A DNA stretch of 64,000 nucleotides from Acidocella aquatica. GTDB lineage: Bacteria; Pseudomonadota; Alphaproteobacteria; Acetobacterales; Acetobacteraceae. Position numbers and translations under genes: made by a program. Shown here piece after piece: positions 11,372-35,047 of the stretch (the stretch's first letter is position 1; each line of letters begins with the position of its first letter). The stretch covers positions 1-64,000 of the forward strand of contig NZ_BSOS01000024.1 of NCBI RefSeq assembly GCF_030160635.1, written 5' to 3'. The notes under the pieces are model-generated. The model was given only the letters and a program-made list of their open reading frames with translations. It had not been told where the DNA came from and ran no database searches.

Positions 11372-11409
11372 GCCTTGACCGCCCCGCGATGGGAGCCACA
11401 TACTCCCGC

Positions 11410-13497: not shown

Positions 13498-13642
13498 GCG
13501 AGTCCGCCTTCCCCCATGCCTCCACCGGCGGTAAACCTTGACTTTGCGCCCCGCTTTGCCGATAGGAGGCCTGAGGAAAATAGCGCGGTTTGCGCTAGGC
13601 GCGTTGTCGCGCGCACGACCACAACACGAACGGGTTCAATTT

Positions 13643-15400
13643 TTGTCAGACACTCCTGAGACCGGCGCACAGACCACTGCGCTCGATGAGACTATTCAAG
13701 ACACCGGCGCGGAGCACCTCGCCGTAAGCGGAATCATTGAGACTCCAGCCGCCGCGCCGGATGTGCCAGACCCGGCCGGGCCGGAGCCTGTTCAAGAGTC
13801 CGACGAAGCCGACGCCGACGAGCGCGTCGCCGAGGATGCCGCCGCCGAAGCCGATGGCTTTGCCCCGCTTGGCCTCTCCGAACCCATTTTGCGCGCCCTG
13901 CACGACAAGGGCTACCTCCGCCCCACGCCGATCCAGGCCCAGGCCATCCCCACCGTTCTCATGGGGCGCGACGTTCTCGGCTGCGCCCAGACAGGCACCG
14001 GCAAAACCGCGGGCTTCACCCTCCCGCTGCTTGACATTCTCTCAGGCAGCCGCGCCCGCGCCCGCATGCCCCGCTCGCTCATCCTCGAGCCGACGCGCGA
14101 ACTCGCCCTCCAGGTCGCCGAAAACTTCGTCGCCTACGGCAAATACCTCAAGCTCAATCACGCGCTGTTGATCGGCGGCGAGAGCATGTCCGACCAGAAG
14201 GACGCGCTGGCCAAGGGCGTTGATGTGCTCATCGCCACCCCCGGCCGCCTTATCGACCTGTTCGAGCGCGGCGGCCTGCTGCTGCGCGACGTGCGCGTGC
14301 TGGTGATCGACGAAGCCGACCGCATGCTGGACATGGGCTTCATCCCCGACATTGAGCGCATCGTCGCCATGCTCCCCGCCACCCGCCAGACGCTCTTTTT
14401 CTCCGCCACCATGGCGCCCGAAATCCGCCGCCTGGCCGACGCCTTCCTGAGCAACCCGAAGGAGATCACCGTCTCCAAACCGGCCTCGGTCGCCACCACC
14501 ATCACCTCCGGCCTGGTGCTGGTCAACGAGCATGACAAGCGCGAGGCCCTGCGCCGCCTCATCCGCTCCGAGGACGTGCAGAACGCGCTGATCTTCTGCA
14601 ACCGCAAGCGCGATGTCGACATTCTGCTCAAATCCCTCCTCAAACACGGCTTCTCCGCGGGCGCCCTGCATGGTGACCTGGCGCAATCCGTGCGCTTCGC
14701 CACCCTCGAAAAATTCAAGGCCGGCGAACTGCGCCTCCTGGTCTGCTCCGACGTCGCCGCCCGCGGCATCGACATCGGCGGCCTCAGCCATGTGTTCAAT
14801 TTTGACGTGCCGCATCATTGCGAAGACTATGTCCATCGCATCGGCCGCACCGGCCGCGCCGGCAAGGAAGGCCGCGCCTTCACCATCGCCACGCCCGATG
14901 ACCGCCTGGCCGTCGAAGCCGTCGAAAAACTGATCGCCGCCCCCATCCCGCGCATCGAGATCCCGGGGTTGGATATCGTCGAATGGGCCGAGGGCGATGG
15001 CCGCCGCGGCCGTGGCGGCCGCACAGGCCGTGGCAAACCCGCCGCCAAGGCGCCCGCCCGCCCCGCCAAGGCCCCCGCCAAGGCCAAGGAGGAAGAACCC
15101 GCCCGTGAGCGTGAGCGCGAACCAGCCCGCGAGCGCACCCCGCGCCCGCCACGCGGCGAGCCGCGCCGTGAGGAGCCAGCCGCCCGCGTCGAGGAACCCC
15201 GCCGCCGCGAGCCGCGCACCATCTACGCGAGCGACAACAACGGCCCCAGCGTGCGCGGTTTCGGCGCCGATGTCCCGGCCTTCATGCTCATCCGCAAGCG
15301 CGGCCCGCTCGCCGCCATTCTGGACGAGCCAAACGAGACCGAGGAAGACGATGTGGTTCAGCCCGGCGATGCCAGCAACGGCGAGGGCATCGCGGCTTGA
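13643..15400 (+). CDS. DEAD-box ATP-dependent RNA helicase (RhlE/DeaD type)
   Basis: Cytoplasmic RNA helicase of about 585 aa. It has an acidic Ala/Glu-rich N-terminal extension (~70 aa), the Q motif (LRPTPIQ), Walker A AQTGTGKT, PTREL, ATPGR, DEAD (VIDEADRMLDMGF), SAT, ARGIDI and HRIGRTGRAG. The basic C-terminal tail is rich in Arg/Glu/Pro/Ala, probably RNA-binding and disordered. The roles of such helicases are ribosome assembly, mRNA decay and cold adaptation. The start is uncertain. TTG 13643 (MSDTPE...) is chosen, but the frame is open upstream to a TTG at 13538 that coincides with a possible -35 box. Confidence 0.88.
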   Translation: MSDTPETGAQTTALDETIQDTGAEHLAVSGIIETPAAAPDVPDPAGPEPVQESDEADADERVAEDAAAEADGFAPLGLSEPILRALHDKGYLRPTPIQAQAIPTVLMGRDVLGCAQTGTGKTAGFTLPLLDILSGSRARARMPRSLILEPTRELALQVAENFVAYGKYLKLNHALLIGGESMSDQKDALAKGVDVLIATPGRLIDLFERGGLLLRDVRVLVIDEADRMLDMGFIPDIERIVAMLPATRQTLFFSATMAPEIRRLADAFLSNPKEITVSKPASVATTITSGLVLVNEHDKREALRRLIRSEDVQNALIFCNRKRDVDILLKSLLKHGFSAGALHGDLAQSVRFATLEKFKAGELRLLVCSDVAARGIDIGGLSHVFNFDVPHHCEDYVHRIGRTGRAGKEGRAFTIATPDDRLAVEAVEKLIAAPIPRIEIPGLDIVEWAEGDGRRGRGGRTGRGKPAAKAPARPAKAPAKAKEEEPAREREREPARERTPRPPRGEPRREEPAARVEEPRRREPRTIYASDNNGPSVRGFGADVPAFMLIRKRGPLAAILDEPNETEEDDVVQPGDASNGEGIAA

Positions 15401-15445
15401 CCTTCAAGCCCGCTTCGCCTCTCCACCCCGGCCTGAACTAACCCC

Positions 15446-16522
15446 ATGAGCCACTGCCTCCACTTTGGCATCTGCGGCGGCTGCGCCACGGATACCCTGG
15501 CCGCGCCGCAAAAATCCCTGGCGCTGTCTCAGGCTTTGGCCAGAGCCGGGTTCGCGGACGCCCCTTTGTCCCCGCTGGTGGAAACCCCGCTGCGCAGCCG
15601 CCGCCGCGCGGACCTCGGCGCCACCCGCAAAGCCGGTGACATCTCTCTCGGCCTGCACCGCACAGCCAGCCCCGCGGTGGTTGACATGCGCGAATGCGCG
15701 CTGCTCCTGCCGGAAATCGTGGCGCTGCTGCCTGATCTACGAATCCTCCTGCGCAGCCTTCAGGCTTTCCGCAGCACCGGCGCCGTCGTCATCAACTGGC
15801 TCGACAATGGCCCGGATATCCTGCTGCGCATGGACGCCGCATTCACCGGCCCCGACCGCACCAAGATCATCGCCTTCGCCCGCGCCCACAACGCGCCGCG
15901 CATCAGCATCGCCACGGGGGCTGAACTGCCCGAGCCAGCGGTCATCCTGCAAACCCCCGCCATCAGCTTCTCCGGCGTCCCGGTAGACCCCCCGCCGGGC
16001 GGCTTTCTCCAGGCCAGCCGGGCAGGGGAGGCAGCCATCATCGCTGCCGTGCTCGCGGGCCTGCCCAAACTCAGCCTCAAATCGCGCATCGTCGAACTCT
16101 ACGCAGGTGCCGGCACCCTCTCCTTCGCCCTCGCGCAGCACGCGCGGGTGGAGGCCTATGAGGGCGATGCCAGCGCCACCCAATCGCAGGACAAAGCCAT
16201 CCGCCTGAACAATCTGGCCGGGCGCATGCGCGTCACCCAGCGCGACCTCCACCGCCGCCCCCTGCAAGCCGCCGACATGGCCGGCGCCAAAGCCGTGGTC
16301 CTAGACCCCCCCTACGCCGGCGCCACCACCCAAATGCGCTTTTTAGCCGCCAGCGGCGTTGCCCGCATCATCTATGTAAGCTGCAACCCCGACGCTTTGG
16401 CCACCGACGCCGCCGTGTTGCGCCGCGCCGGATATTTGGTCCGCAACGCCACGCCGATCGACCAGTTTCCGTATTCGGAAAATGTTGAGAGCGTGGTGGT
16501 GTTTGAGAAGTTAAAAAGTTAA
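15446..16522 (+). CDS. 23S rRNA (uracil-C5)-methyltransferase, RlmC/RlmD family
   Basis: 358-aa SAM-dependent RNA methyltransferase. A [4Fe-4S] site is formed by Cys4, Cys10, Cys13 and Cys84. The SAM motif is VELYAGAGTLSFAL. The nucleophile is Cys313 in YVSCNPDAL. The general base Glu lies near the C terminus (YSENVESVVVFEKL). No TRAM domain precedes the cluster, which favours the shorter RlmC-like subtype over RlmD or TrmA. It methylates C5 of a uridine, most likely in 23S rRNA. It starts 45 bp after the helicase, so the two may share a ribosome-maturation operon. The AT-rich islet begins directly downstream. Confidence 0.85.
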   Translation: MSHCLHFGICGGCATDTLAAPQKSLALSQALARAGFADAPLSPLVETPLRSRRRADLGATRKAGDISLGLHRTASPAVVDMRECALLLPEIVALLPDLRILLRSLQAFRSTGAVVINWLDNGPDILLRMDAAFTGPDRTKIIAFARAHNAPRISIATGAELPEPAVILQTPAISFSGVPVDPPPGGFLQASRAGEAAIIAAVLAGLPKLSLKSRIVELYAGAGTLSFALAQHARVEAYEGDASATQSQDKAIRLNNLAGRMRVTQRDLHRRPLQAADMAGAKAVVLDPPYAGATTQMRFLAASGVARIIYVSCNPDALATDAAVLRRAGYLVRNATPIDQFPYSENVESVVVFEKLKS

Positions 16523-16550
16523 TCTTTCGAATAGATTCAAAGATTGATAA

Positions 16551-17177
16551 TTAGGTAGCGAGATTTTTTGCGACAAGTTTGATGAATTGGGCCCAATTTT
16601 TGTGGTTTTGAATTCCAGAAGAACAGAATTTATAGGCGATTGAAACGGGGTCAATTTTTTCTGGACCCGTTACGAGTTGACGCTCTCGTATGGTCAAAGC
16701 GGATCGTTTTGAACGATGCACGATGAAATTTCTGACGTATCTCAAGTCCGAAATATCCCAAGGGGTAACGCCCAATTGATCTGTGATGTTTTGTAAATTT
16801 GAAACAGCTAAATGTGTTGCGGCTTGGACTGCTTTGTCGGGTAGATACCAATCAGGTTCCATCGGTCGCTTTTGGTTCCTATATTGGGCAAGGAGCACAT
16901 GGCACGCAGCTTCCCTTGTCGAGAGACGGATGGGCAGTTTTGAAACTATTGGACCAGAGCTGTCGCAATAATTGCCTGTTGCGCAATCAAGAATGAGATT
17001 TCTAATGAACAGTTCCCATTCAATTTGAAGTTGGATCAGCGATCTCTCGACAATGAAAATCTCGTGAGAGGCGAGACTTGTACCATGGTCATACTCATTG
17101 ATGGTTTGGGTTAAGGCGTCAATCCGTGCTCCAAACCGGAAAAGGCGTCTACTTAGCTCCATGATTAGCGATTGCAT
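16551..17177 (-). CDS. HEPN-domain protein (MAE_28990/MAE_18760-like), partner of DUF262
   Basis: 208-aa helical protein with a HEPN-type motif RNFIVH (Arg149-x4-His154), preceded by the helix DLRYV. HEPN domains with an intact R-x4-6-H motif are usually metal-independent RNases of toxin-antitoxin or abortive-infection systems. The upstream DUF262 gene overlaps this one by 29 bp, so the two are one translational unit. Codon use is AT-rich, unlike the flanking GC-rich genes, pointing to recent transfer. The family name is from recall of HEPN proteins paired with DUF262; RNase activity is inference. Confidence 0.65.
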   Translation of the reverse strand: MQSLIMELSRRLFRFGARIDALTQTINEYDHGTSLASHEIFIVERSLIQLQIEWELFIRNLILDCATGNYCDSSGPIVSKLPIRLSTREAACHVLLAQYRNQKRPMEPDWYLPDKAVQAATHLAVSNLQNITDQLGVTPWDISDLRYVRNFIVHRSKRSALTIRERQLVTGPEKIDPVSIAYKFCSSGIQNHKNWAQFIKLVAKNLAT

Positions 17178-18213
17178 TCACCAAGAAATGGAGGCGGGTC
17201 TTTCGTGAGGAAACGCGATGTGTAGTACTTTTACTTGCCCCGACGAACTGAGCGTAGGGCGAGCTTTCATCGTCTTCCAAGTCGAATGCTTGCGCAATTT
17301 GTGCAAGTGAATTCCCAGCACTCTCCCAATCAACACCGACTCCACGGAGTTCCGTAATGCCTTCGGTTAGTCGGTTATCGGGTGCATTCCCGTTGAGATA
17401 AGCTGCCGCCGCAAATAGTGCGAGAAAATTGGGTGCATCATAGAAGGTCGTTTCAACAAAATCTTGGGAAGTATGTTTGATTATCTCGTTGATTGTCTCG
17501 TCGATCTTTACTCGAAGCTTTTGGAAATAGGTTTCATCATTTCCGATATGCTCCCTGTAGTATCTTCCAATCGATGGTTCACCACCATCCCCGAATCCTA
17601 CATCGACGACCATGAACATCTCAGCCATGACTGAGGTGTTTTTAAGTCTAACGCTTTCCCGGACGCTGACAATCTTGAACTCGTTCCAAAGCTTGCTCCA
17701 GTCCGATGTGGCATCGTAAATAGCCCATTTTACCGGTTCTGAGTACTCGGCATGACGAAGCTCAGCTGGGGTAACTTTTACACTGTATGAATTTAACCGA
17801 GCAAATACCTCCAGCACGTCAGCATCGTTAGCATTCAAAAGTTGAACTACTGACACTTTGTACGAAAGAAAACTTTCCTGATCTTCTGCGTTGAGGTCTG
17901 CGTAAAATTTCCCTTTGTGGTTTGGGGCCTTTAAAGTCAGTTTCAATTTGCCGGCGGCAAACTCAAGAATGGCGCGCAATCTCTGTTGCCCATCGACAAC
18001 TTCACGAACGGTAGTTTGACTGATTCGATCAAGTATGGTGCGAAAGTAGATCTGGGGCATTGGAAAGTCGTTTAATATCGTATCGATCAGATATACTTTT
18101 GCCGAAGGCGTCCAAACAGAACCGCGCTGAAAATCAGGTGAGAGGATTAGTTGTTTTTTATTATACCACTCTATGAAATCAGAAATTGTGTAGGTTTGCG
18201 GGACACTTGCCAT
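17149..18213 (-). CDS. DUF262 (ParB-like/GmrSD N-terminal-type) protein
   Basis: 354 aa. The N-terminal DUF262 domain shows FQRGSVW (28-34) and DGQQR (74-78), the signature of the ParB/Srx-like NTP-using nuclease superfamily found in GmrS and in many phage-defence loci. FARLNSYSVKVTPAELRHAEY (~145) is the second conserved block. There is no C-terminal DUF1524 HNH domain, so this is not a complete GmrSD; the HEPN protein downstream may be the effector. ATG 18213 is chosen because AAGG precedes it by 6 nt; an upstream ATG at 18270 is in frame but lacks a ribosome site. AT-rich composition marks it as acquired. Confidence 0.8.
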   Translation of the reverse strand: MASVPQTYTISDFIEWYNKKQLILSPDFQRGSVWTPSAKVYLIDTILNDFPMPQIYFRTILDRISQTTVREVVDGQQRLRAILEFAAGKLKLTLKAPNHKGKFYADLNAEDQESFLSYKVSVVQLLNANDADVLEVFARLNSYSVKVTPAELRHAEYSEPVKWAIYDATSDWSKLWNEFKIVSVRESVRLKNTSVMAEMFMVVDVGFGDGGEPSIGRYYREHIGNDETYFQKLRVKIDETINEIIKHTSQDFVETTFYDAPNFLALFAAAAYLNGNAPDNRLTEGITELRGVGVDWESAGNSLAQIAQAFDLEDDESSPYAQFVGASKSTTHRVSSRKTRLHFLVNAIANHGAK

Positions 18214-18326
18214 TTTTTTACCTTGTGCGAAGCATAACGGGGAATACCAGTCGGTGACAATCGGCACCATGTTAAAGACGTATGGATGTAATAGATTGTA
18301 AGTGGCGGCAAGGTGTTATTTAGATA

Positions 18327-18376
18327 ATGGGGGTCTGGGGCCTCAGGCCCCGGCGGGTTGCAGGGCAGAGCCCTGA
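18327..18376. repeat. Twin-hairpin GC-rich intergenic repeat
   Basis: Two adjacent perfect stems: GGGGCC-TCA-GGCCCC (18337-18351) and CAGGGC-AGA-GCCCTG (18361-18375), joined by CGGCGGGTTG. Repeats of this style (a ggggtctggggc... type) are scattered through Acetobacteraceae genomes. It marks the edge of the AT-rich DUF262/HEPN islet. Confidence 0.6.
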
Positions 18377-18394
18377 TCTTAAAACCCTAACCCC

Positions 18395-18805
18395 CTACCC
18401 CTGCTTCCAGGGCAGCCCCTCCGCCTTCCAGCCCCCCACATTCCCGCGGTGCCCCCGCGCGTCCTGCGGCCCCTCGAACCCGTCCTTCACATTATACACA
18501 TGCTTATACCCGGCCGCCTTGGCCGCCATCGCCGCCGCCATGCTGCGCGCGCCCGAGCGGCAGATGAAATATATATGGTCGCTATGCTCCAGCTTCGCCG
18601 CTGCCAGCGCTTCCAAAAATTTCGGGTTGGGCTGCATGGTGGGGTAAATCTGCCACTGCACCAGCACCGGCTGCTTGCCGGTCTGGGTCAAATCCGGCAC
18701 GCCGACAAAGCTCCACTCGGCATTTGTCCGCACATCGCACAAAGCAGCATCGGGATTGCTCATTAACGCTTCCCAGACCTGTCGCGGCGCCAAATCTTCG
18801 ATCAT
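18395..18805 (-). CDS. Rhodanese-like domain protein
   Basis: 136-aa single rhodanese fold. The active-site loop is CRSGARS, with the catalytic Cys near residue 83; CDVRTNAEW is the conserved N-terminal block. Rhodaneses carry sulfane sulfur as a persulfide. It is divergent from cysK with 58 bp between starts, hinting at shared regulation in sulfur metabolism. ATG 18805 has a GGGGGA upstream. Composition returns to the GC-rich host style. Confidence 0.85.
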   Translation of the reverse strand: MIEDLAPRQVWEALMSNPDAALCDVRTNAEWSFVGVPDLTQTGKQPVLVQWQIYPTMQPNPKFLEALAAAKLEHSDHIYFICRSGARSMAAAMAAKAAGYKHVYNVKDGFEGPQDARGHRGNVGGWKAEGLPWKQG

Positions 18806-18863
18806 AATGTCCCCCGCAAGTATTGTATGCCGATTACGGCCAGCATAGCGGGGACATTAAGCA

Positions 18864-19847
18864 ATGGAAACAGTCGTGGACGGTTTGATCGGCGCAATCG
18901 GCAACACACCGCTCATCCGGCTCGGGCGGGCCAGCGCCGCCACGGGCTGCGAGATTTTGGGCAAGGCCGAGTTTCTCAACCCCGGCGGCTCGGTGAAAGA
19001 CCGCGCCGGCCTCGCCATCATCCGCGCCGCCGAGGCTGACGGCACGCTCAAACCCGGCGGCACCATCGTCGAGGGCACGGCCGGCAACACCGGCATCGGC
19101 CTCACCCTGGTCGCCAACGCGCTGGGCTATAAATGCGTCATCGTCATGCCCGAGACGCAGAGCCGCGAGAAGATCGACTTTTTGCGCATGATCGGCGCCG
19201 ACCTCCGCCTGGTCCCCGCCAAACCCTTCAAAGACCCCGGCAATTACGTCCACGTCTCGCGCCGCCTGGCCGGGGAGCTGGGTGCTCTCTGGGCCAACCA
19301 GTTTGACAATCTGGCCAACCGCGAGGGCCACCGCGCCACCACCGGCGCCGAAATCTGGGCCCAGACCGGCGGCAAGGTGGATGCCTTCACCTGCGCCTGC
19401 GGCACCGGCGGCACGCTGGCCGGGGTCAGCCTCGCGCTGAAGGCCCACAACCCGGATATCAAAATCGTCCTGGCCGACCCAGAGGGCAGCGGCCTCTACG
19501 GCTGGGTGAAAAACGGCGATCTCACCATCACCGGCTCCTCCATCACCGAGGGCATCGGCCAGTCCCGCGTGCCGGAAAATCTGGGCGGCGCCATCATTGA
19601 CGACGCCGAGCGCATCCCCGACCCGGAGGCGCTGGAACAAGTGTTCGACCTGCTGATCCACGAGGGCCTCTCCGTCGGCGGCTCGGCCGGCATCAACGTC
19701 GCCGCCGCCATCCGCGTCGCCAAAACCCTCGGCCCGGGCCACACCATCGTCACCATCCTGTGCGACGGCGGGGCGCGCTACCAGAGCAAGCTCTTCAACC
19801 CGGAATTCCTGCGCTCCAAAAACCTGCCGGTGCCGGCATGGCTCTAG
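18864..19847 (+). CDS. cysK: Cysteine synthase A (O-acetylserine sulfhydrylase)
   Basis: 327-aa PLP enzyme that makes L-cysteine from O-acetylserine and sulfide in the cytoplasm. The PLP lysine is Lys45 in NPGGSVKDR. The substrate loop is EGTAGNTGIG, and GTGGTLAGV (~178) binds the cofactor phosphate. The C terminus lacks an obvious regulatory extension. The amidase start overlaps its last 10 bp, so they are co-transcribed. Confidence 0.92.
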   Translation: METVVDGLIGAIGNTPLIRLGRASAATGCEILGKAEFLNPGGSVKDRAGLAIIRAAEADGTLKPGGTIVEGTAGNTGIGLTLVANALGYKCVIVMPETQSREKIDFLRMIGADLRLVPAKPFKDPGNYVHVSRRLAGELGALWANQFDNLANREGHRATTGAEIWAQTGGKVDAFTCACGTGGTLAGVSLALKAHNPDIKIVLADPEGSGLYGWVKNGDLTITGSSITEGIGQSRVPENLGGAIIDDAERIPDPEALEQVFDLLIHEGLSVGGSAGINVAAAIRVAKTLGPGHTIVTILCDGGARYQSKLFNPEFLRSKNLPVPAWL

Positions 19848-21202
19848 AAGACCCCTCAACGCTTGACGCCGAGGAGCTGCTGGCCGCCTACGCCGCCAAA
19901 ACCCTCACCCCGCTGCAGGCGCTGCAATCCATCACCGAGCGCATCGCGCGGCGCAACCCCGAGATCAACGCCTTCGCGGTGATGAACCCAGCCGCCCTGC
20001 GTGACGCCCAGGCCAGCACCGCCCGCTGGGCCGCCGGCGCGCCGCAAGGCGTGCTGGACGGTGTGCCCGTCACCATCAAAGACATTATAGACGTCGCGGG
20101 CCTGCCCACCCGGCGCGGCAGCAAAACCTCAAGCCCCGCGCCCCAGCCAGTGGACTCCCCCGCCGTCACCGCCCTGCGCGCCGCCGGGGCGGTGATTTTG
20201 GGGAAAACCACCACCACCGAATTCGGCTGGAAAAGCCCCGGCGACTGCCCGGCCACCGGCATCACCCGCAACCCCTGGAACCCAGCCCACACCCCCGGCG
20301 GCTCCTCCTCCGGCGCCGCCGCCGCCGCCGCCGCGTTTTTCGGCCCGCTGCATGTGGGCACCGATGCCGGCGGCTCTATCCGCATCCCCGCCGCCTGGTC
20401 CGGCGTGGTCGGCCTCAAGCCCAGCTTCGGCCGTGTGCCGCAATGGCCGCTGGGCGCTTTCGGCCATGTCGCCGTCGCCGGGCCCATCACCCGCACGGTG
20501 CGCGATGCCGCCCTCATGCTCTCCGCCACCGCCGGTTTCGCCCCGCGCGACCCCTTCTCCCTGCCCGAGCCAAAACGTGACTTCCTGGCCGGTATCGAGG
20601 ACGGCGTGGCCGGCCTGCGCATCGGCATCCTCACCAGCCCCGGCTTCGCCGCCCCGGCGGATGATGACGCGATGGACGCCCTGCAATCCGCCCGTCAAAT
20701 CCTCGAATCCCTCGGCGCGAAACTGGTCGAGGCCACCATCCCCCTGCCGGACGCCTCCGCCAGCTTCGCCAAAATCTGGGGCGCCGCCCTGGCCCGCCAG
20801 GTCGCCGCCATCGCGCCGGAGCATCGCGCCCTGCTGGATTACGGCCTCACCAGCCTCGCCCAACAATTCGCCCAGACCACGGCGATTGACATGCTAGAGG
20901 CTGAAGCCCTGCGCGTGCAGGCCGCCCACGCCATGGCCACCGCTGATTATGATGCGCTGATCTGCCCCTGCGTCCCCCAGGCCGCCCCGCTTGCCGGTGT
21001 CCCGGTGGAAGACCCCGTCCACGCCCTGATGCACCATTGGGCACCGTGGACATTGCTCTTCAACCTCACCCGCCAGCCGGCGATCTCGCTGCCCATGGGG
21101 GTGAATGCCGCCGGCCTGCCGGTCGCCGTGCAAATCGCAGCCCCTCTGTACCGTGACGATGTGGTCCTCAAAATCGCCCGCGCGGTGGAAAAAATGGTGT
21201 AG
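19838..21202 (+). CDS. Amidase signature family enzyme
   Basis: 454-aa Ser-cisSer-Lys hydrolase. The catalytic Lys is Lys81 in PVTIKD. The Gly/Ser-rich loop GGSSSGAAAA is at ~154-163, and GTDAGGSIRIPA carries the nucleophilic Ser. It is like GatA, but no gatC or gatB is nearby, so a catabolic aliphatic or carbamoyl amidase is more likely. Substrate unknown. The stop codon lies inside a 15-bp tandem repeat (21188-21245), each copy of which would restore the same EKMV-stop end. Confidence 0.82.
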   Translation: MALEDPSTLDAEELLAAYAAKTLTPLQALQSITERIARRNPEINAFAVMNPAALRDAQASTARWAAGAPQGVLDGVPVTIKDIIDVAGLPTRRGSKTSSPAPQPVDSPAVTALRAAGAVILGKTTTTEFGWKSPGDCPATGITRNPWNPAHTPGGSSSGAAAAAAAFFGPLHVGTDAGGSIRIPAAWSGVVGLKPSFGRVPQWPLGAFGHVAVAGPITRTVRDAALMLSATAGFAPRDPFSLPEPKRDFLAGIEDGVAGLRIGILTSPGFAAPADDDAMDALQSARQILESLGAKLVEATIPLPDASASFAKIWGAALARQVAAIAPEHRALLDYGLTSLAQQFAQTTAIDMLEAEALRVQAAHAMATADYDALICPCVPQAAPLAGVPVEDPVHALMHHWAPWTLLFNLTRQPAISLPMGVNAAGLPVAVQIAAPLYRDDVVLKIARAVEKMV

Positions 21203-21245
21203 GAAAAAATGGTGTAGGAAAAAATGGTGTAGGAAAAAATGGTGT
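21188..21245 (+). repeat. 15-bp tandem repeat carrying the amidase stop codon (3.9 copies)
   Basis: The unit GAAAAAATGGTGTAG occurs at 21188-21202, 21203-21217 and 21218-21232, with a 13-of-15 partial copy at 21233-21245. The unit is five codons long and encodes E-K-M-V-stop, so copy-number change cannot alter the amidase. It lies between the amidase and the convergent DUF952 gene. Confidence 0.95.
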
Positions 21246-21247
21246 CG

Positions 21248-21583
21248 TCAGGGCAGTTTTACGCTGCCGTCCGCCGCGCGCGCCAGCGGTGCATGGGCCA
21301 CCACCGCGGCGATGCTCAACCGGCCGTAGAGATGCGGAAATTTCTGCCCCCCGCGCGAGACCTCCCAACGCACGGCCTCGCCCAGCGCCGCCAAATCCAC
21401 CGCCGCCGCCACCAGATTATCCTGCCCGGCGAAATGCCGGTCCACTGTCTCGCGCACCTGGGCAGCGGTGGAGAGGTGGATATATCCATCCGCCTGATCC
21501 ACCGGCGCGCCATCAAACACCCCGGCCTTCAGCGCGGCGAACTCCGTGCCGGTTAATATTTTATAGGCGATCGCATCGTTCAT
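21248..21583 (-). CDS. DUF952 family protein
   Basis: 111 aa, cytoplasmic. It contains the DUF952 hallmarks: an early YKILT, DGYIHLST (~33-40), a FPHLYG segment and an Ala-rich end. Function is unknown; the fold is ADP-ribosyltransferase-like in some classifications. ATG 21583 has a GGAG about 8 nt upstream. It converges on the amidase, with the tandem repeat right at its 3' end. Confidence 0.75.
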   Translation of the reverse strand: MNDAIAYKILTGTEFAALKAGVFDGAPVDQADGYIHLSTAAQVRETVDRHFAGQDNLVAAAVDLAALGEAVRWEVSRGGQKFPHLYGRLSIAAVVAHAPLARAADGSVKLP

Positions 21584-21733
21584 ACCCGCTCTCCCGCATC
21601 TGCCGCCCGCAATTCTACCCCAGGCCCGCCGCGCAACCAAAGCCATGCCTCTAAATCATAGTGCATCATAAAAATTTTTCTGGTATTGGGTGTTTAAAAT
21701 AGTTAACTAGAGAAAACGCAGAGGAGCCGCACC

Positions 21734-23056
21734 ATGCCAGACACCCACGCCCCAAGTAACGTCCCGCTTGTTCACCAATGGATGCCTTTCACCGCCAACC
21801 GGCAGTTTCTGGAGCAGCCCCGGCTGATCACGGGCGCTGAAGGTGTCTATTATTATAATACACGTGGTGACAAAATCTTTGACGGTTCATCCGGTCTTTA
21901 CTGCATTCCGCTGGGCCACGGCCGCCGCGAAATCCGCGAAGCCGTCACCCAGCAGATGCAGGAGCTGGATTACGCCCCGCCGTTTCAATACGGCGTCCCG
22001 GCGGCCTTCCGTCTCGCCGCCGAGATGGCCGAAATGCTCCCCCCCGGCCTCAACCGCGTCATCTTCTCCGGCTCCGGTTCCGAATCAGTCGAAACCGCGC
22101 TGAAAATCGCCATCCAATATCACCGCGTCCGCGGCGAGGGGCAGCGCCAGCGCATCGTCGGCCGTGAGCGCGGCTACCATGGCGTCAACTTTGGCGGATG
22201 GTCCGTCGGCGGCATGGTCAACAACCGCAAGAGCTTCGGCCTCGGCCTGCCTGGCGCGCTGCACATGCGCCACACCAAAATCCCCGAAAACCAGTACGAG
22301 ATGGGCGAGGGCACCCATGGCGCCAACCTCGCGGATGATCTGCAGCGTTTTGTTGATCTCCACGGCGCCGACACCATCGCCGCCTGCATCGTCGAGCCGA
22401 TCGCCGGTTCCACCGGCATCCTGGTCCCGCCCAAGGGCTATCTGCAGCGCCTGCGCGACATTTGCACCAAGCACGGCATCCTGCTGATCTTCGATGAAGT
22501 CATCACCGGCTTCGGCCGCACCGGGCAGAATTTCGCGGCGCAGACCTTTGGCGTCACGCCCGATATCATGACCATGGCCAAGGCGCTCACCAACGGCTCC
22601 ATCCCGATGGCGGCGACCGCGGTGCGCGAGGAGGTCCAGCAGACCATTCTCGATGCCGCGCCCGAGAACAACATCGAGTTCTACCATGGCTACACCTATT
22701 CCGGGCACCCCGTTGCCTGCGCGGCTGCCCTGGCGACGTTGAAAATCTTCCGCGAGGAAGACACCTTCGCCCGCGTGCGCAATCTCGCCCCAGCCTTCCT
22801 GGAGCAGATCGGCGCGTTCAAGGATCTGCCCTACGTCACCGACACGCGCGGCTACGGCCTGCTCAGCGCGGTGGAGCTGGAGCCAAAAGGCAAGCCCGGC
22901 GACCGGGGCTTCAACATTCTCTGCAAGGCGTTCGAGGCCGGTCTGGTGCTGCGCGCGGCGGGCGACACCATCGTCCTCGCCCCGCCATTTGCCGCCACGG
23001 CGGACGAGCTTTCGCAGATGATCGATATCATGCGAAAAGTCATCAAAGAGAGCTAG
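21734..23056 (+). CDS. Class III omega-aminotransferase (beta-alanine--pyruvate type)
   Basis: 440-aa PLP transaminase. The cofactor lysine is Lys283 in TMAKALTNGSIPM. SGSGSESVETALK binds the PLP phosphate, and FDEVITGFGRTG carries the PLP Asp. The start (VHQWMPFTANRQF) and SGHPVACAAALA fit the beta-alanine/omega-amino acid:pyruvate subgroup. The product semialdehyde would be oxidised by the dehydrogenase encoded 14 bp downstream. GAGGAG precedes ATG 21734. Substrate could be beta-alanine, GABA or a polyamine product. Confidence 0.88.
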   Translation: MPDTHAPSNVPLVHQWMPFTANRQFLEQPRLITGAEGVYYYNTRGDKIFDGSSGLYCIPLGHGRREIREAVTQQMQELDYAPPFQYGVPAAFRLAAEMAEMLPPGLNRVIFSGSGSESVETALKIAIQYHRVRGEGQRQRIVGRERGYHGVNFGGWSVGGMVNNRKSFGLGLPGALHMRHTKIPENQYEMGEGTHGANLADDLQRFVDLHGADTIAACIVEPIAGSTGILVPPKGYLQRLRDICTKHGILLIFDEVITGFGRTGQNFAAQTFGVTPDIMTMAKALTNGSIPMAATAVREEVQQTILDAAPENNIEFYHGYTYSGHPVACAAALATLKIFREEDTFARVRNLAPAFLEQIGAFKDLPYVTDTRGYGLLSAVELEPKGKPGDRGFNILCKAFEAGLVLRAAGDTIVLAPPFAATADELSQMIDIMRKVIKES

Positions 23057-23070
23057 AGGAAGTATAGATA

Positions 23071-24504
23071 ATGTATCAGGACGTTTTGCTGCATATCGCG
23101 GGCAAGTGGCGCGCGGCCCATGGTGGCCGCACGCTTGGTGTCGTCAACCCCGCGACGGAAGAGGTCATCGGCACGCTGGCCCATGCCGGCATTCCCGACC
23201 TTGACGAAGCACTGGAATCCGCCGCCGCCGGTTTTGCCGTGTGGCGGAAACTCTCGGCCTATGAGCGCAGCAAGATCATGCGCAAGGCGGCCGATCTGGT
23301 GCGTGAGCGCAGCGAGTCCATCGCCCGGCTCATGACCGCGGAGCAGGGCAAGCCCCTGGCCGAGGCGCGGATGGAAATTCTCGGCTCGGCGGATGTGATC
23401 GACTGGTTCGCCGAGGAAGGCCGGCGCGCCTATGGCCGCGTCATCCCGGCGCGCGCGGCGGGCATCTACCAGCTCTCGCTGCGTGAGCCTGTCGGCGTTG
23501 TCGCGGGGTTCACGCCGTGGAACTTCCCGATGAGCCAGGCCGTGCGCAAGGTCTCCGCCGCCCTGGCGGCAGGCTGCGCGTTCATCCTGAAAGGGCCGGA
23601 GGAAACTCCCGCGAGCTGCGCCGAACTGGTGCGCGCTTTTGTTGATGCCGGAACCCCCGCCGGCGTGGTCCAGCTTGTCTTCGGCGTCCCGGCGGAAATC
23701 TCCGAATATCTGATTCCCCACCCGGTGGTGAAGAAAATTTCCTTCACCGGCTCAACCGTCGTGGGCAAGCATCTGGCCGCCCTGGCCGGTGCGCACATGA
23801 AGCGCGCGACGATGGAGCTGGGCGGCCACGCCCCGGCGATTATTTTCAACGACGCTGATCTCGACGCGGCGGCCACCATTCTCGCCGCCAACAAGTTCCG
23901 CAACGCCGGGCAGGTTTGCGTGGCCCCCACGCGCTTCATCGTGCAGAACGAGGTCTACCAGCCGTTCCTGCAAAAATTCGTCGCCAAATGCGAGGCCATC
24001 AAACTCGGCAACGGCCTGGAGGATGGCACCACCATGGGCCCGCTCGCCAATGACCGCCGGGTCGCGGCGATGGAGTCGCTGCTCGCCGATGCCGTGGGCA
24101 AGGGTGCCAAAATCGCCACCGGCGGCAAGCGTTCAGGCAACAAGGGCTATTTCTTCGAGCCGACGGTGGTGACCGATATCCCCCTCGATGCCCGCGTGCT
24201 GCACGAGGAGCCATTCGGCCCGCTGGCGCTGTTCATGCCCTTCGGCAGTTTTGACGACGCGATCGCCGAAGCCAACCGTCTGCCCTACGGTCTCGCGGCC
24301 TACGCCTACACCCGCTCCGCCACCACGGCGGCGGGCCTCGGCGCTGGCATCGAGTCCGGCATGGTGGGCATCAACCACCACGGCCTGGCGCTGCCTGAAA
24401 CGCCGTTCGGCGGCATGAAGGACAGCGGCTACGGCTCGGAAGGCGGCGCCGAAGGGCTGGAGCCTTATCTGGTGACGAAGTTTGTAACCCAGGCCAGCGT
24501 TTAA
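23071..24504 (+). CDS. NAD(P)-dependent semialdehyde dehydrogenase (GabD-like ALDH)
   Basis: 477-aa aldehyde dehydrogenase. The catalytic Cys283 is in [11 protein letters not shown] and the general base Glu249 in [18 protein letters not shown] is the cofactor-binding turn, and PWNFPMSQ is the conserved N-terminal block. It most resembles succinate-semialdehyde dehydrogenases. Paired with the upstream transaminase, it would complete conversion of an omega-amino acid to a dicarboxylate. It is followed by a bidirectional terminator. Confidence 0.88.
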
Positions 24505-24563
24505 CCCAGGCCCAGGCGGCGGCGCTTCCTGTGAGGCGCCCCGCCCCGGACCACGCCTGAAAT

Positions 24564-24609
24564 AAAAAAACCTCCGGTCAGCGCGTTGGGCGCCAGCCGG
24601 AGGTTTTTT
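24564..24609. terminator. Bidirectional rho-independent terminator
   Basis: AAAAAA-CCTCCGG at 24564-24576 pairs with CCGGAGG-TTTTTT ending at 24609, enclosing a GC-rich loop. The A-run and T-run allow use from both sides. It separates the semialdehyde dehydrogenase from the convergent TIGR02300 gene. Confidence 0.88.
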
Positions 24610-24627
24610 GTGGCCGCATAAACGAAT

Positions 24628-24954
24628 TTAGCGTTCGGTGTCGTCTGATTCCGGCTGCACGTCGATATCGGCGTCGAGCACGTCGGCATCGTCGTCCAGA
24701 TCGTCATCTTCCAGAATGTCCTCGTCGTCGCCGTCATCGACAACCTCGACATCCACATCATCCGGGTCGACCGCCGCCGGTTTGACGACTTTCTTCACTT
24801 CCTCGGGCATCGGCGCGGCGCGCTTGAGGCGCGGCTGCTCGGCCGGCTGCTCGGTCGCGCATTTCGGGCAGACCGCCGGCTCCTTGCCGAGATCGAAAAA
24901 CCGAGCCCCGCACGACACGCAGGTATGTTTTGATCCTAGTTCCGGTTTCGCCAT
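24628..24954 (-). CDS. TIGR02300 (FYDLN acid) family protein
   Basis: 108 aa: an N-terminal zinc ribbon (Cys12, Cys15, Cys29, Cys32) around ARFFDLGKEPAVCPKC, then a very acidic Asp/Glu tail (~60-105). The family is typical of Alphaproteobacteria and commonly lies next to aroA, as here (98 bp, divergent). Function is not established; nucleic-acid or ribosome association is a guess from the zinc ribbon. ATG 24954 has AGAGG upstream. Confidence 0.88.
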   Translation of the reverse strand: MAKPELGSKHTCVSCGARFFDLGKEPAVCPKCATEQPAEQPRLKRAAPMPEEVKKVVKPAAVDPDDVDVEVVDDGDDEDILEDDDLDDDADVLDADIDVQPESDDTER

Positions 24955-25052
24955 GCCCAACCTCTGCTCTGAACGCGATTTCAACAAGGGCGGCGCGATG
25001 CCATGCCCAGCCAGCTATGTCAAACGGCTTACCTTATGCTAAGCGGCGCGGC

Positions 25053-26387
25053 ATGGAGACACAACCCGCACGGCCACTGGCCGCCCGCCGCCCATCAACG
25101 CCCCTCGCCGGGGAAATCGCCGTTCCCGGCGACAAATCGATCAGCCACCGGGCCTTGATGTTCGGCGCTCTGGCGGTTGGCCAGACGCGCATAACAGGCC
25201 TGCTGGAGGGCGAGGATGTGTTGCGCACCGCCGCCGCCATGCGCGCCCTGGGTGCCGAGATTACCCGCGATGGCGGCGACTGGCTGGTCTCGGGCCGGGG
25301 AATCGGCGGGCTGACGCCCCCCGAGGATGTTCTGGACATGGGCAATTCCGGCACCGCGGCGCGCCTGCTGGCGGGGATTCTAGCGACGCATGATTTTTCC
25401 TCCGTGATGACCGGCGATGCGAGCCTGCGCAAGCGGCCGATGGGGCGGGTGATCGAGCCGCTCAAGGCCTCTGGAGCGGTGTTCACGGCACGCGAGGGCA
25501 ACCGGCTGCCCTTGACCATCCAGGGCGCGCGGGATGCCCTGCCGATCACCTACCGGCTGCCTGTGGCCTCGGCGCAGGTGAAGTCGGCGATTTTGCTGGC
25601 GGGGCTGAACGCGCGGGGCATCACCGAGGTGGAGGAGCCCGAGCCGACGCGTGACCATTCGGAGAACATGCTCACGCATTTCGGCGCGCAGGTGAAGGTG
25701 ACGCAGGCGGGGCGGGGCAGGATGATCCGCCTGACCGGCCAGCCGGAGCTGCGCGCGGCCGATGTGGTGGTGCCGGGCGATCCGTCCTCGGCGGCGTTTC
25801 CGCTGGTGGCGGGGCTGCTGGTGGCGGGCTCGAAGCTGGTGATCAACGGCGTCGGGCTGAACCCGCTGCGCACCGGGCTGTTTGACACTTTGCGCGAGAT
25901 GGGCGCGGAGCTGGAGATCCGTGATTTCCGGATTCAGGGCGGCGAGAATGTTGGCGATATTCATGTCGAGCATACCGCGCTGGTGGCGGTGGATGTCCCG
26001 GCCGGGCGGGCGCCGAGCATGATCGACGAATACCCGGTGCTGGCCGTGGCCTGCGCCTGCGCGCGCGGGGTGTCGCGGTTGCGGGGCCTCTCGGAGCTGC
26101 GGGTGAAGGAGAGCGACCGGCTGGCCGCCACGGCCGCCATGTTGCGCGCCGGGGGCGTGCGGGTCGAGATCGAGGGGGATGACCTGATCATCCATGGCAG
26201 CACGCAGCCCGCGGGCGGCGGGCTGGTGGAGACCCATATGGACCACCGGCTGGCGATGAGCGCGCTGGTGTTCGGCCAGGCCACCCGCGAGCCGATGCGC
26301 ATTGACGATGCGAGCTTCATCGACACCTCGTTTCCGGGATTCGTGGCGCTGATGCGCCGGCTGGGCGCGGATATTTCGGTGCCATGA
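25053..26387 (+). CDS. aroA: 3-phosphoshikimate 1-carboxyvinyltransferase (EPSP synthase, class II)
   Basis: 444-aa shikimate-pathway enzyme that transfers enolpyruvyl from PEP to shikimate-3-phosphate. GDKSISHRALMFGAL, GNSGTAARL, SLRKRPMGRVIEPL and LRVKESDR are present. The RPMGR block and overall motifs put it in class II, the group of naturally glyphosate-tolerant CP4-type enzymes; tolerance itself cannot be read here. ATG 25053 is used; ATG 25017 is in frame upstream without a ribosome site. It overlaps cmk by 4 bp. Composition of the plus strand becomes strongly G-rich within this gene. Confidence 0.93.
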   Translation: METQPARPLAARRPSTPLAGEIAVPGDKSISHRALMFGALAVGQTRITGLLEGEDVLRTAAAMRALGAEITRDGGDWLVSGRGIGGLTPPEDVLDMGNSGTAARLLAGILATHDFSSVMTGDASLRKRPMGRVIEPLKASGAVFTAREGNRLPLTIQGARDALPITYRLPVASAQVKSAILLAGLNARGITEVEEPEPTRDHSENMLTHFGAQVKVTQAGRGRMIRLTGQPELRAADVVVPGDPSSAAFPLVAGLLVAGSKLVINGVGLNPLRTGLFDTLREMGAELEIRDFRIQGGENVGDIHVEHTALVAVDVPAGRAPSMIDEYPVLAVACACARGVSRLRGLSELRVKESDRLAATAAMLRAGGVRVEIEGDDLIIHGSTQPAGGGLVETHMDHRLAMSALVFGQATREPMRIDDASFIDTSFPGFVALMRRLGADISVP

Positions 26388-27004
26388 TCATCGCCATCGA
26401 CGGGCCGGCGGCGGCGGGCAAGGGCACGCTGGCGCGCCGGATCGCGGCGGCGCTCGGCTTGCCGTATCTCGATACCGGGATGCTCTACCGCGCGGTGGGG
26501 CGGCTGGTGCTGGAGGCGGGGGGCGACCCGGCCGATCCGGTGGCGGCAACGGCGGCGGCCAAGGCGCTGCGGGCGGCGGATTTCGCCAGGGGCGATCTGC
26601 GCGATGCGGCGGCCAGCAAGGCGGCAAGCCAGGTGGCGTCAATCCCCGAGGTGCGGGCGGCGCTGCTGGCGTTTCAGCGGCAGTTCGGCAATGAAAACGG
26701 CGCGGTGCTGGACGGGCGCGATATCGGGACGATTATTTTCCCCGAGGCGGATGTGAAATTATTCGTCACGGCGAGCCTGGAGGCGCGGGCGGGGCGGCGG
26801 CATGCCGAACTGTGCGCCAAGGGCGATGAGGTTTCGCTGGAGGCGGTGCGCGAGGATCTGGCGGCGCGCGACGAGGCGGATGCCAGGCGGGCGGCGGCGC
26901 CGCTGGTGGCCGCGGCGGATGCGATTTTGTTCGACACCACCGAGATGGATGCCGACGCGGCGTTTGCCCGCGCGCTGGCGTTGATAGAGGCGCGGGTGCA
27001 ATAA
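26384..27004 (+). CDS. cmk: Cytidylate kinase
   Basis: 206-aa nucleotide kinase phosphorylating CMP and dCMP. The P-loop GPAAAGKGT is at residues 7-15. YLDTGMLYRAVG and GRDIGTIIFP are the CMP-binding motifs, and the lid carries R-x-DE-x-D-x-R. It is coupled to aroA through an ATGA overlap, the usual alphaproteobacterial pairing. The rpsA gene that normally follows is absent; a weak terminator and a minus-strand gene come next. Confidence 0.93.
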   Translation: MIIAIDGPAAAGKGTLARRIAAALGLPYLDTGMLYRAVGRLVLEAGGDPADPVAATAAAKALRAADFARGDLRDAAASKAASQVASIPEVRAALLAFQRQFGNENGAVLDGRDIGTIIFPEADVKLFVTASLEARAGRRHAELCAKGDEVSLEAVREDLAARDEADARRAAAPLVAAADAILFDTTEMDADAAFARALALIEARVQ

Positions 27005-27011
27005 GCAGCTG

Positions 27012-27042
27012 CTTCACATGGAGCTTTTGTGAAGATGTTTTT
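27012..27042 (+). terminator. Probable terminator of aroA-cmk
   Basis: A 7-bp stem CTTCACA (27012-27018) / TGTGAAG (27028-27034) with a 9-nt loop is followed by TTTTT at 27038-27042. The stem is short and AT-containing, so efficiency may be low. Confidence 0.5.
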
Positions 27043-27137
27043 CTAGAGTACCCGTTGTGGTCAAGCGGCTTTAGCTTCCCACTTGCGCCCCAATTTGCGC
27101 GGGTGCGTGCCGGAAACACAACAAACGGCCGGCTGCG

Positions 27138-29909
27138 TTATTGCGGCGGCGCGGCTGGGGCTGGTTCTGGCGCCGGTGGTGCCCAGTCCAGCGCGGGTTT
27201 GAGGCGCGGGTATTGGTTGGGCTTTGCCCAGCTGCCGAGCAGCGCGGTGTTGAGGGTGAGCGGCGGGGTGACGCTGGGGAGCAGGGCAAGGCGCAGGGCG
27301 AGGCTGTGGTCAAAAATGTCGATGCTGCCGGTGGCGCTGGCGCTGCCTGAGGGGCCGGTGAGGCTGGCGCTGTTTAAAGTGCAGTTGCCGTGGCCGAATG
27401 TGCCCGAGAGAGCCAGGGTGGTGAAGCCGGTGTTGCCGCTGGCCAGTGCGGCGCGCAGGGCCTTGGCGCGGTCTGGCGCATGCAGGGCCTGGGCCAGCGC
27501 GGCGAGAGAGAAGCCTTGGAGCTGGCCGTTGCTGGCGTTGAGGCTGGCGGTGCCGCCGAGCGTCGCGGCCCAGGTTTTTGGCGCGTAGCCCGTGGCGGTG
27601 AGCGCGGCTGAAGCGTCAAAATTTCCGGAGAGTGTGTAGGGGAAGGCCAGCGGCAGGTTGAGCTGCGTGGGGTCGATATGGCTGGCGGTGAACTGGGCGG
27701 TGAGTGCCGGGGGCTGGTTGCCGGCGGCGGTGGCGGTGATGCTGCCCGCCAGCGTGCCGCCCGCGAGGCTGGCCTGGGGCAGGGCCAGGGTGAGGCGGCT
27801 GCCGGGGCTGAAGGTGAGGCTGGCGCTGGTGGCGCCGAGGATGGGGTTGCCGCCATAGAGGACGCGGCTGGCGGTGATGCCGATTTTGCCCTGCGCGGCG
27901 GCGAGAGCCTGCCATGGGAGTGTGTAGCCCGCCGGAATGGGCGGCAGGGCGAGGGTGCTGGAGTCAATCTGGCCGGAGATGATGCCCTTGTTGCTCACCA
28001 GCTGGCCGTTGGCGGTGAGGTCGCCGAGGGAGAGGACGAAATTTGGCAGGCCGAAGCTTGTTGGAGAGGCGATGAAATTGGCGCGTAGCGAGATGGACCC
28101 GGCGCCAGGATAGGCGAGGCCCTGCGAGAGGCCAAAAATATTCAGCGCGGCGATGGCGCTGGGGTGTTGCAGCGAAATGGCGCCGGTGGCGCTTGGCTGC
28201 GTCAGGTTGATGACCGGGGTGGCGGTGAGCGTGAAGGGACCCAGCACGGCGAGCGCGCTGGCGGCCAGGGCGCTGGCGGGGCCGCGGGCGGCCAGGGTGA
28301 GGCTGAGGCGGGGTTGCACCAAAGCGGCGGGCAGGTGCGGCCAGGATGCCGGCAGCAGCGCGGCCAGCGGCGCCGCCGAGGGCAGCGAGAGGAAGCCGCG
28401 CGCGGCGGTGACATTGCTCTGGGCGTCGAGCGTGACGCTGCCGGCGGCGAGGCCGCCCAGCACATTGGCGGAGATGCGGCGGATGTTGAGCTGGTTGTTC
28501 AGCGCGCCGTCAAGCAGCAGATGCGTGAGCGGAACCGGGCCGAGGCTGGCGCGCGCGGCGGTGATCTGGCCGTCGGCGGTGAAATTGCCGGGGCGCTGGC
28601 CAAGCCAGGAGAGCAGGGGGGTGAGGTCCAGACGGTCAAAACTGAGGGCGCCGGTGGCGTGGTGGCCGGTGATGATGAGGCCGCCGGTAAGGTGGCTGGG
28701 GCCGAGGCTGCCGGTGAGGTTGGCGAGCGTGAGCTGGCTGATGGTGCCGGAGAGGTTGGTGGAGAGCTGCGCCGAGGTCCAGGCGGGGGGCGGGGTGAGG
28801 CCGTAGGCGGTGAGCAGGCCCGGGAGGTCGGGGCTGTTGAGGCTGGCCTGGCCAGTGAGCGCGCCCGCGGCGGAGATTTTCAGGCTGGTGGCGAGTGTGG
28901 TGGTGCCGGGCAGGGTGGCCTGCAGGGATTGTATGTTCAGGCCGCCGGCTGACAGGTTGAGGCTGGTGGTGAGCGCGGGAAGACTCTGGCCGTTGTAGGT
29001 GAGGTTGCTGGCGGTGAGATCGAGCGCGATGGGCAGGCTCGGCCAGCCGGGCAGCAGGGCGCGCAGCGGCGTGAGGTCGAGGTTCTGGGCGTCCAGCGTG
29101 GCGGTGAGGGCGGGCTGCGAGAAATCGAGCGTGGCGCTGCCGGTGACGCTGGCCTTGGCGATGGTGAGGTGCAGCGCGCCGGCGGTGGCTGTGCTGCCCG
29201 CGATGGTGAGGCTGGCGCTGCCGGAGGTGTTGGGGGCCGCGAGGCTGAGCTGGCCGGTCAAGGCGCTGTCGCCGCCGAGGCTGCCGGAGAAGTTGAGGGC
29301 GAGGGGGCCGCTGTTGGCGGTGAGCGAAAGCGGCGCGGCGCCGGTGAGGGCGGTGGCGCCCAGGGCGGCCGTGAGGCTGAGATTGTTGCCTTGCAGATTG
29401 CCGGTGCCCGAGATGGTGACGGCGCCGTTCGCGCCGGTGAAGAGATCGGCGTCAACATTGGCGAATTGCGCGCCGCCGAGGCTGATGTTGCCGTGGTGGA
29501 TCTGCGCGTGCAGGGCGGCGAGCCAGCCGGGCGGGGCGATGGATTTCGGGCCGCCGGGCAAGGGCCAGGGGAAGGCGATCGTGGGGCTCTCCAGGGTGAG
29601 GGTCTGCGCGCTGAGCTGGCCGTGCAGCAGGGCGGGCAGGGAGATGTCCAGCGTGAGGGCCTTGGCGGTGATGACCTCGTTGTCTGGCCCGGTGATGGTG
29701 ATCTGTTGGGCGTTGAGCTCGGGCGCTGGCAGCAGGCTGAGGGTGAGCTTGCCCGTGATGTGGACATCCCGCCCGGTGAGGCTGGAGGCCAGTTGCTCAA
29801 TGCGGGCGCGGTGCGCGCTGGAGGCGACGAAACCGGGCAGCGCCAGCACGGCGGCGGCGGCGGCGGCGATGAGGCCAAGCGGGATGAGCCAGAGGCGGTT
29901 TTTGTTCAC
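27138..29909 (-). CDS. AsmA family inner-membrane protein
   Basis: 923 aa with one N-terminal transmembrane helix (~4-27) and a long periplasmic part of repeated beta-strands rich in Leu/Ser/Thr/Ala. The start ([35 protein letters not shown]) is the AsmA N-terminal signature, and the late [19 protein letters not shown] block is the AsmA C-terminal region. AsmA-like proteins are bridge-type lipid transporters or outer-membrane biogenesis factors. Its start overlaps the oxoprolinase stop by 4 bp, an operon whose logic is unclear. Confidence 0.85.
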
Positions 29910-35041: not shown

Positions 35042-35047
35042 GCGCAC

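Follow-up and report, generated by a model that had tools for sequence, protein, structure and literature searches.

In archaeal chromosomes with several origins and in eukaryotic N-domains, GC skew changes sharply from negative to positive and gradually from positive to negative. For bacteria, three papers give the closest comparisons: most parS sites lie near oriC (review, PMC7022226), the cyanobacteria Synechocystis and Nostoc have several initiation sites per chromosome and are reported to show irregular skew and to replicate independently of DnaA (PMC7198777), and the chromosome of Acetobacter pasteurianus 386B, with one oriC near dnaA, divides into two replichores of similar size (PMC3751514). 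Here we describe a window of DNA (the whole stretch analysed, bases 1–64,000 of the 83,295-bp contig C24, NZ_BSOS01000024.1) from Acidocella aquatica, whose genome (G000) is a 4.03-Mb draft of 137 contigs in no established order. In the window, the plus strand turns from C-rich to G-rich at the gene aroA, and an 81-bp element ending in a parS-type palindrome is dispersed over the genome, with copies near such switches. On the sequences, we give roughly even credence to the reading that this chromosome is replicated, or was until recently, from many sites, most of them tagged by parS.

Sharp and gradual skew transitions

A single change point, fitted over the whole window with a binomial model, falls at 25,155, barely within the 5' end of aroA (log-likelihood gain 484.5), and the minimum of cumulative skew is at 25,149. 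The observed excursion was reached by none of 20,000 shuffles of 1-kb blocks. An earlier note on this DNA had claimed a reversal of strand composition at about 21–25 kb, and the skew of the whole window indeed changes sign there. The six 60-nt counts of G and C given there were all exact on recounting but are strong examples, since G minus C per 60 nt averages −4.4 on the left and +7.9 on the right, and the label of 7021–7080 as a minus-strand gene is uncertain, with open frames on both strands. The transition is a ramp of about 5 kb (about 22–27 kb), with gene values of −0.31, −0.17, −0.05, +0.16, +0.34 and +0.50. On the right, skew drops to +0.10 over 55.5–64 kb; past the window on C24 it is −0.08 at 64–66.5 kb and then weakly positive until the contig ends at 83.3 kb. 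An AT-richer island (16551–18270), of GC about 0.50 and bearing one gene of the GmrSD_N/DUF262 type (PF03235), stands amid core genes, and its skew is near zero, as in recent foreign DNA.

The bias follows the strand and not the coding direction, as the earlier note had held. Third-position skew of the plus strand, for which that note had proposed a check, is mostly negative on the left and mostly positive on the right whichever strand the genes occupy, with three exceptions (the small frame 198–743, the low-GC gene 17,149–18,270 and the frame at 63,520). Within 10 kb, neighbours on opposite strands correlate in skew (r=0.56 on C24, 0.59–0.77 on four other contigs). Transcription or coding bias was ruled out as the cause, because opposite-strand genes share their skew and gene direction is unrelated to it. 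In the relative G007, where a switch follows about 15 kb to the right of aroA, the orthologues of aroA and cmk have the same orientation and the opposite skew (−0.30 and −0.54), so the sign depends on position and not on the gene.

Switches of this sign recur. In the G000 stretches covered (340 of 371 kb of C67, 260 of 302 kb of C7, C94 and C24; 881 kb in total), seven negative-to-positive switches were found (Table 1), and a further one lies on C99 near 17.9 kb. In G007, contig C4 (753,504 bp, all covered) has upward jumps of skew at 217 and 588 kb, and its downward drift crosses zero near 117, 420 and 668 kb. Over G000 and G007, negative-to-positive transitions (median width 3.0 kb, n=9, range 2.25–13.5) are narrower than positive-to-negative ones (median 15.25 kb, n=7, range 6–62.75; Mann-Whitney p=0.0011), with the centres of the two kinds set differently (step fits versus segmentation and eye) and without the C67 fall at 4.7 kb and a slow drift at the left of C94. 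The ratio of positive to negative jumps at 0.12, 0.16, 0.20, 0.25 and 0.30 is 13:8, 11:3, 9:3, 8:0 and 3:0 with 8-kb flanks, and 13:4, 11:3, 9:2, 8:2 and 3:0 with 12-kb flanks. Signed skew decreases with distance from the switch on three of five contigs (rho −0.64, −0.71 and −0.53). Forks leaving several initiation zones, or one often-moved origin, would be predicted to give sharp divergence points and gradual convergence; sharp rises with gradual falls between them are what we found, some of the falls being fairly sharp.

This asymmetry is unlike plain inversions. The earlier note had also suggested that an inversion end or an assembly join might explain the window switch, which does not agree with the gene order: the genes for an aldehyde dehydrogenase (ALDH) and a FYDLN_acid protein, aroA and cmk are collinear across the change point in G000, G032 and G007, and in G032 the switch is at the same gene (119,250; gain 496) with the order conserved on both sides. 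Compared with other relatives, the order breaks at 24.5–24.6 and 27.0 kb, both outside 25,105–25,285; compared with G032 and G007, no break lies at the change point. More broadly, one ordinary origin followed by many inversions, with the skew blocks as relics and the elements as incidental repeats, seems improbable to us. It could draw on the rearranged gene order of the genus, where G034, G012, G033 and G037 have the FYDLN-aroA-cmk block in the opposite orientation, and on the fairly sharp falls. However, inversions give equal sharpness for both signs, unlike the measured 3.0 and 15.25 kb, gene order is unbroken at the change point of the window, and G000 and G032 share both gene order and switch here, although this is one switch only. 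Near the inverted block, G034 and G012 have weak skew rises, seen by eye only (the best fitted step of G012 is a fall at 165.9 kb), and the step fitted at aroA in G033 is weak (gain 24.9). GC skew is nearly absent from the 80 kb covered in each of G037 and G017; within the genus, its strength varies strongly.

A palindrome-ended element beside the switches

Palindromes were searched with a 16-bp palindromic parS consensus of the TGTTTCACGTGAAACA type. With at most two mismatches, it occurs at 25 places in G032 (16 perfect), nine in G000 and one in G007, while the reversed pattern used as control gave 0, 1 and 0. Eight of the nine G000 places carry one variant, TGCTTCACGTGAAGCA, and one of the eight adjoins parB; like the perfect sites of G032, they are of the 16-bp parS type. 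An 18-base form with three mismatches matched 13 places in G000 and three in G007 (all on C8, 87–103 kb), with one control match in each. The commonest form depends on the species, being the T-form in G032 and the C-form in G000. This difference between species, together with the form that the parB-adjacent palindrome shares with seven other G000 places, suggests a single trans-acting binder.

In the dispersed sites, the palindrome ends an 81-bp repeat (alignment A1) that reads TTGGGGTGCAAGYRAAAAATTAAG..ACTAACAA..GTTA..CCTCACAA and then the palindrome, and about 40 more common bases precede it. The palindrome next to parB has a different context. The nhmmer search added a copy at C7:136.9 kb, whose palindrome arms carry matched changes, and the window copy. 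All five copies checked on G000 contigs are intergenic, four of them between converging genes. Among 38 genomes of the genus, model R1 matched 17 times in G000, 37 in G032, 20 in G010, 17 in G015, 21 in G022 and 18 in G002, all six being close species, where some of the matches counted are truncated, split or overlapping; in the other 32, one or two weak matches occur in 10 and none in 22. The 17 matches of G000 fall on 15 contigs and the palindromes of G032 on many, and no clustering in an origin region was seen on these unordered contigs, between which distances are undefined. Weak matches in the sister clade (G017:C33 17178, G006:C15 79027, G031:C27 77842 and G027:C48 4036; one each, two in G027) are possibly ancestral copies.

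In 200 genomes of the family searched with stricter filters, a match at 1e-4 was found in G000 only. Ten outside genomes have the palindrome at 2–6 places, with 2–3 of them within 10 kb in eight of the ten; looser spacing occurs in G083 (27 kb) and G066 (276 kb), and the control also matched in G083 (1) and G098 (3). In G066, five parS-like palindromes are spread over C1 867425–1143250, wider than usual. A weak parS-like palindrome (2 mismatches) at G050:C1 2135770, about 1.35 kb downstream of an aroA match, recalls the place of the window element and may be due to chance. Searches for a source of the element gave no plasmid match and only palindrome-length phage matches; three viral contigs match a 19-base pattern, which we judged to be at chance level. 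Two IMG/VR contigs (L265 and L267) have repeats with GTGCAAG and an AT-rich run, resembling the first third of the element without the palindrome, probably by chance. In G007, among the repeats common to the switch regions are hairpins also present in other parts of its contigs, and nothing specific was found as a counterpart of the element. Terminator-like hairpins with GC-rich arms around TTTTTATAAAAA lie on G007:C4 at 240047, 335274, 637012, 694653 and 746775, and are absent from four G000 contigs.

Skew data were at hand beside 10 of the 17 G000 matches and 3 of the 37 in G032. In 11 of these 13 copies, a fitted negative-to-positive step lies 0.3–6 kb from the palindrome, on the palindrome side (0.3 kb at C41, 1.7 at C5, 1.75 at G032 C18, 1.8 at G032 C90, 1.9 in the window, at C67:28.9 and at C7, 2.0 at C73, 3.1 at C94, 4.4 at C99, where the stretch adjoining the element has no data, and 6.0 at C88, near the edge of the stretch covered). 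The oriented skew rise toward the palindrome side is positive in all 12 copies scored (C99 was not scorable), and in each of the 12 the DNA flanking the element from behind is rich in C on the strand of the element. From the back flank to +2 to +5 kb on the palindrome side, skew rises in 11 of 11 copies by +0.238 on average, and by +0.230 in the twelfth copy scored. Against a null of 40,000 places drawn at random from four G000 contigs (mean 0.003, sd 0.093), taken as independent in this and the other randomization tests on skew, the observed mean was reached in 0 of 200,000 draws, whether all 11 copies were used, the eight of G000 or the seven not used to notice the pattern. The pattern was suggested by C67:28.9, C94, G032 C90 and the window copy; C5 and two 10-kb stretches of G032 had been chosen for their palindromes before it was noticed, and C7, C73, C88 and C41, found or chosen afterwards, all agree. 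Four of the seven G000 switches have an element within 3.2 kb. Scored elements lie at negative-to-positive rises and all 12 turn the same face to the rise, which also speaks against inversions.

The window copy (Table 1) had an E value of 0.02 in the earlier nhmmer search. Its palindrome remnant (27,008–27,025) faces the switch 1.86 kb away; no palindrome match was found there within 3 mismatches, and the symmetry is lost. G032 has an intact copy at the same place, and in G022, G010, G015 and G002 copies lie about 0.6 kb past the aroA end, where cmk would end (cmk itself is not annotated in these four, and the G002 copy is partial). An assembly or binning artefact, which the 137 contigs of G000 might invite, is hardly credible given that the junction and switch are repeated in the separate G032 assembly, that the element is near aroA in five other assemblies and that the sawtooth recurs in G007.

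We infer that the switches are initiation zones, several of them used now or recently, and that ParB binds the dispersed sites, the same palindrome form standing 10 bp from parB. The window switch would be one of many such zones. Forks would leave each zone both ways, and the leading strand would become G-rich on either side over evolutionary time; skew would be sharp at start sites and gradual in between, where forks from adjacent zones meet at positions that vary. Many zones of the window's clade would have a one-sided, oriented element ending in a palindrome, usually 0.3–6 kb off, and a zone with the element would possess a ParB-binding centromere site of its own, which would serve segregation and perhaps the loading of SMC. 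The element resembles a centromere site accompanying initiation zones, because its palindrome is the parB-adjacent form and the commonest form has changed between species. Replication probably does not start at the element itself, because in 11 of 12 copies the first 1.5 kb beyond it remains rich in C (the exception, C41, is at +0.02) and G007 has a sawtooth without it. More tentatively, and with greater doubt than confidence, we propose a polycentric multi-origin chromosome, in which a compact, oriented parS element has spread through an alphaproteobacterial lineage to about 15–35 places, many or all beside their own bidirectional start zone.

The asymmetry would equally arise from one origin at a time whose place moved repeatedly, leaving sharp negative-to-positive scars with gradual falls between; the switches would be fossil origins, some still marked by parS. 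The switch about 15 kb from aroA in G007 and at aroA in G000 and G032, and the decay of the window copy, are in line with such movement. We nevertheless consider it unlikely, as skew is strong at many places simultaneously (C67 segments from −0.25 to +0.22) where old origins should fade, 17–37 element matches persist, and one palindrome form is kept at eight places in G000. It is very unlikely that the bias was caused by a process other than replication that proceeds in both directions from parS, for example ParB-dependent SMC loading with its side effects on repair or mutation. An element with the parB-adjacent palindrome does track the switches, but the switch is offset, usually by 0.3–6 kb, to one side of a symmetric palindrome, and G007 has the sawtooth with palindromes on C8 only. 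ParB-dependent SMC loading is not known to have a mutational effect of this kind.

Origin markers and neighbouring genes

On C67, genes for ParB, a ParA-type ATPase, RsmG, MnmG and MnmE lie at 161–167.6 kb and adjoin the 167.7-kb switch, with the parS-type palindrome 10 bp from parB (ParB and ParA were identified by their domains). We take this set of genes to be a marker of the origin region, and the locus is likely the conventional one. The dnaA gene of G000 is on contig C99. The earlier note had offered a replication origin as one reading of the window switch, and its sign is that expected of one; this part of the claim stands, while the switch is not the chromosome's single origin. As a single oriC, a reading to which we attach scarcely any weight and which we rejected, the window would be favoured by the sign, strength and sharpness of its switch. 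Six more switches lie in the 881 kb of the draft, so the negative-to-positive minimum is not unique, and the parB-mnmG-mnmE locus and dnaA are on other contigs. The scan for DnaA boxes and unwinding elements proposed in the earlier note found neither a box cluster nor an AT-rich stretch at the switch: TTATCCACA with at most one mismatch gave six matches in 83 kb, all of them more than 6 kb away from the window switch, and the lowest GC of any 150 bp within 3 kb of it is 0.53, at the decayed element. Loss of RNase HI, which would allow starts independent of oriC, was rejected, because RNase HI is present in 14 of 14 genomes searched.

Several observations weigh against many parS-tagged initiation zones. 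DnaA and RNase HI are present; four looser DnaA-box forms gave one match overall at seven switch sites, and no k-mer common to the switch points survived correction for the k-mers tested. Genes are not preferentially placed on the leading strand: of 1157 scored, 605 lie on the strand that is locally richer in G. On C67, both measured positive-to-negative transitions are just 6–8 kb wide, there is no decay of skew away from the switch, and the fall at 4.7 kb, near the contig start, was left out of the width measurement; G007:C6 also has a sharp positive-to-negative change near 290 kb. The element at C67:267.5 is 18 kb from the nearest negative-to-positive switch, and at G032 C20 the best step is on the other side of the element, which makes this copy ambiguous. 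Conversely, the 167.7-kb switch of C67 is accompanied by the parB palindrome alone, 6.3 kb away, and no element or palindrome was found in the 20 kb scanned at the C67 249.7-kb and C7 39.15-kb switches. An earlier unoriented test on 5 and 4 G000 palindromes was moderate only (p=0.012 and 0.007). Because G007 has the sawtooth and lacks the element, the element is not needed for it. The window copy is decayed although the window switch is strong, and because the switch remains, either ParB binding is unneeded for the skew or the loss of the palindrome is recent. Finally, the assemblies compared are drafts, some of them metagenome-derived.

Table 1. Features of the window and negative-to-positive switches of G000
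Feature	Position	Strand	Basis or remark
Left domain, plus strand C-rich	1..25150	.	composition; skew −0.116
ALDH gene	23071..24504	+	gene-order comparison
FYDLN_acid protein gene	24628..24951	-	PF09538
aroA, 3-phosphoshikimate 1-carboxyvinyltransferase	25053..26387	+	third-position skew +0.16
GC-skew change point, C-rich to G-rich plus strand	25105..25285	.	change-point fit; 2-unit range
Right domain, plus strand G-rich	25151..55495	.	composition; skew +0.223
cmk, (d)CMP kinase	26384..27004	+	third-position skew +0.34
Decayed parS-bearing element copy, between cmk and AsmA-family gene	27008..27094	-	21.8 bits, E 8.9e-4
AsmA-family gene	27138..29909	-	plus-strand third-position skew +0.50 despite minus strand
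Hydantoinase/oxoprolinase gene	29906..33493	-	plus-strand third-position skew +0.55 despite minus strand
Switch on C24	25.15 kb
Switches on C67	30.9, 167.7, 249.7 kb
Switches on C7	39.15, 135.0 kb
Switch on C94	118.9 kb

The AroA of the window is 94–95% identical to records of Acetobacteraceae bacterium bog_937 and Acidocella sp. STC_51, and 82–83% identical to two further Acidocella records. An extra block of 2–3 kb between ALDH and aroA, absent from the window, is found in G032 (C90 119850–122230) and G012 (C63 144850–147930), and contains a long repetitive NSGSI-type open frame that is surface-protein-like. In the right part of the window (35050–55276), RNase P RNA lies directly upstream of a division and cell-wall cluster with the plus-strand order mraZ-mraW ... 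mraY ... ftsA-ftsZ-lpxC. The Rfam search gave this one RNase P in the window and no match in six further loci.

Meaning and described systems

If the polycentric reading is true, the chromosome would be replicated and segregated as many units and not from one oriC. A single origin per bacterial chromosome is close to dogma, and the printed exceptions met here are cyanobacteria, with irregular skew. A proteobacterial genus whose skew is a sawtooth and which has a centromere-like repeat beside many switches would be a tractable case for studying the evolution of many-origin chromosomes, the trigger of each site and the segregation of a chromosome that has many ParB sites. Prediction of origins from GC skew would misread such genomes. 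Judged by titles, we found no publication on Acidocella origins or ParB, on sawtooth GC skew and origins, or on several origins and parS in Alphaproteobacteria.

Compared with chromosomal ParABS systems, the palindrome of G032 is the exact parS consensus, and the G000 form adjoins parB; the sites differ in being scattered over many contigs, within an oriented element of 81 to about 125 bp. The shape of the skew resembles that of multi-origin archaea and N-domains, whereas Acidocella is a bacterium and its markers are parS-like. The excerpt of an archaeal skew paper (PMC12999951) reports no such case. Acetobacter pasteurianus 386B belongs to the same family, Acetobacteraceae, and GC skew was used there to place the origin; it has a single oriC and two replichores, in contrast to the many switches of A. 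aquatica. As in cyanobacteria, several initiation sites would be present on one bacterial chromosome. Acidocella differs from them in its sawtooth skew, in having dnaA and in the repeated element found near many of the switches.

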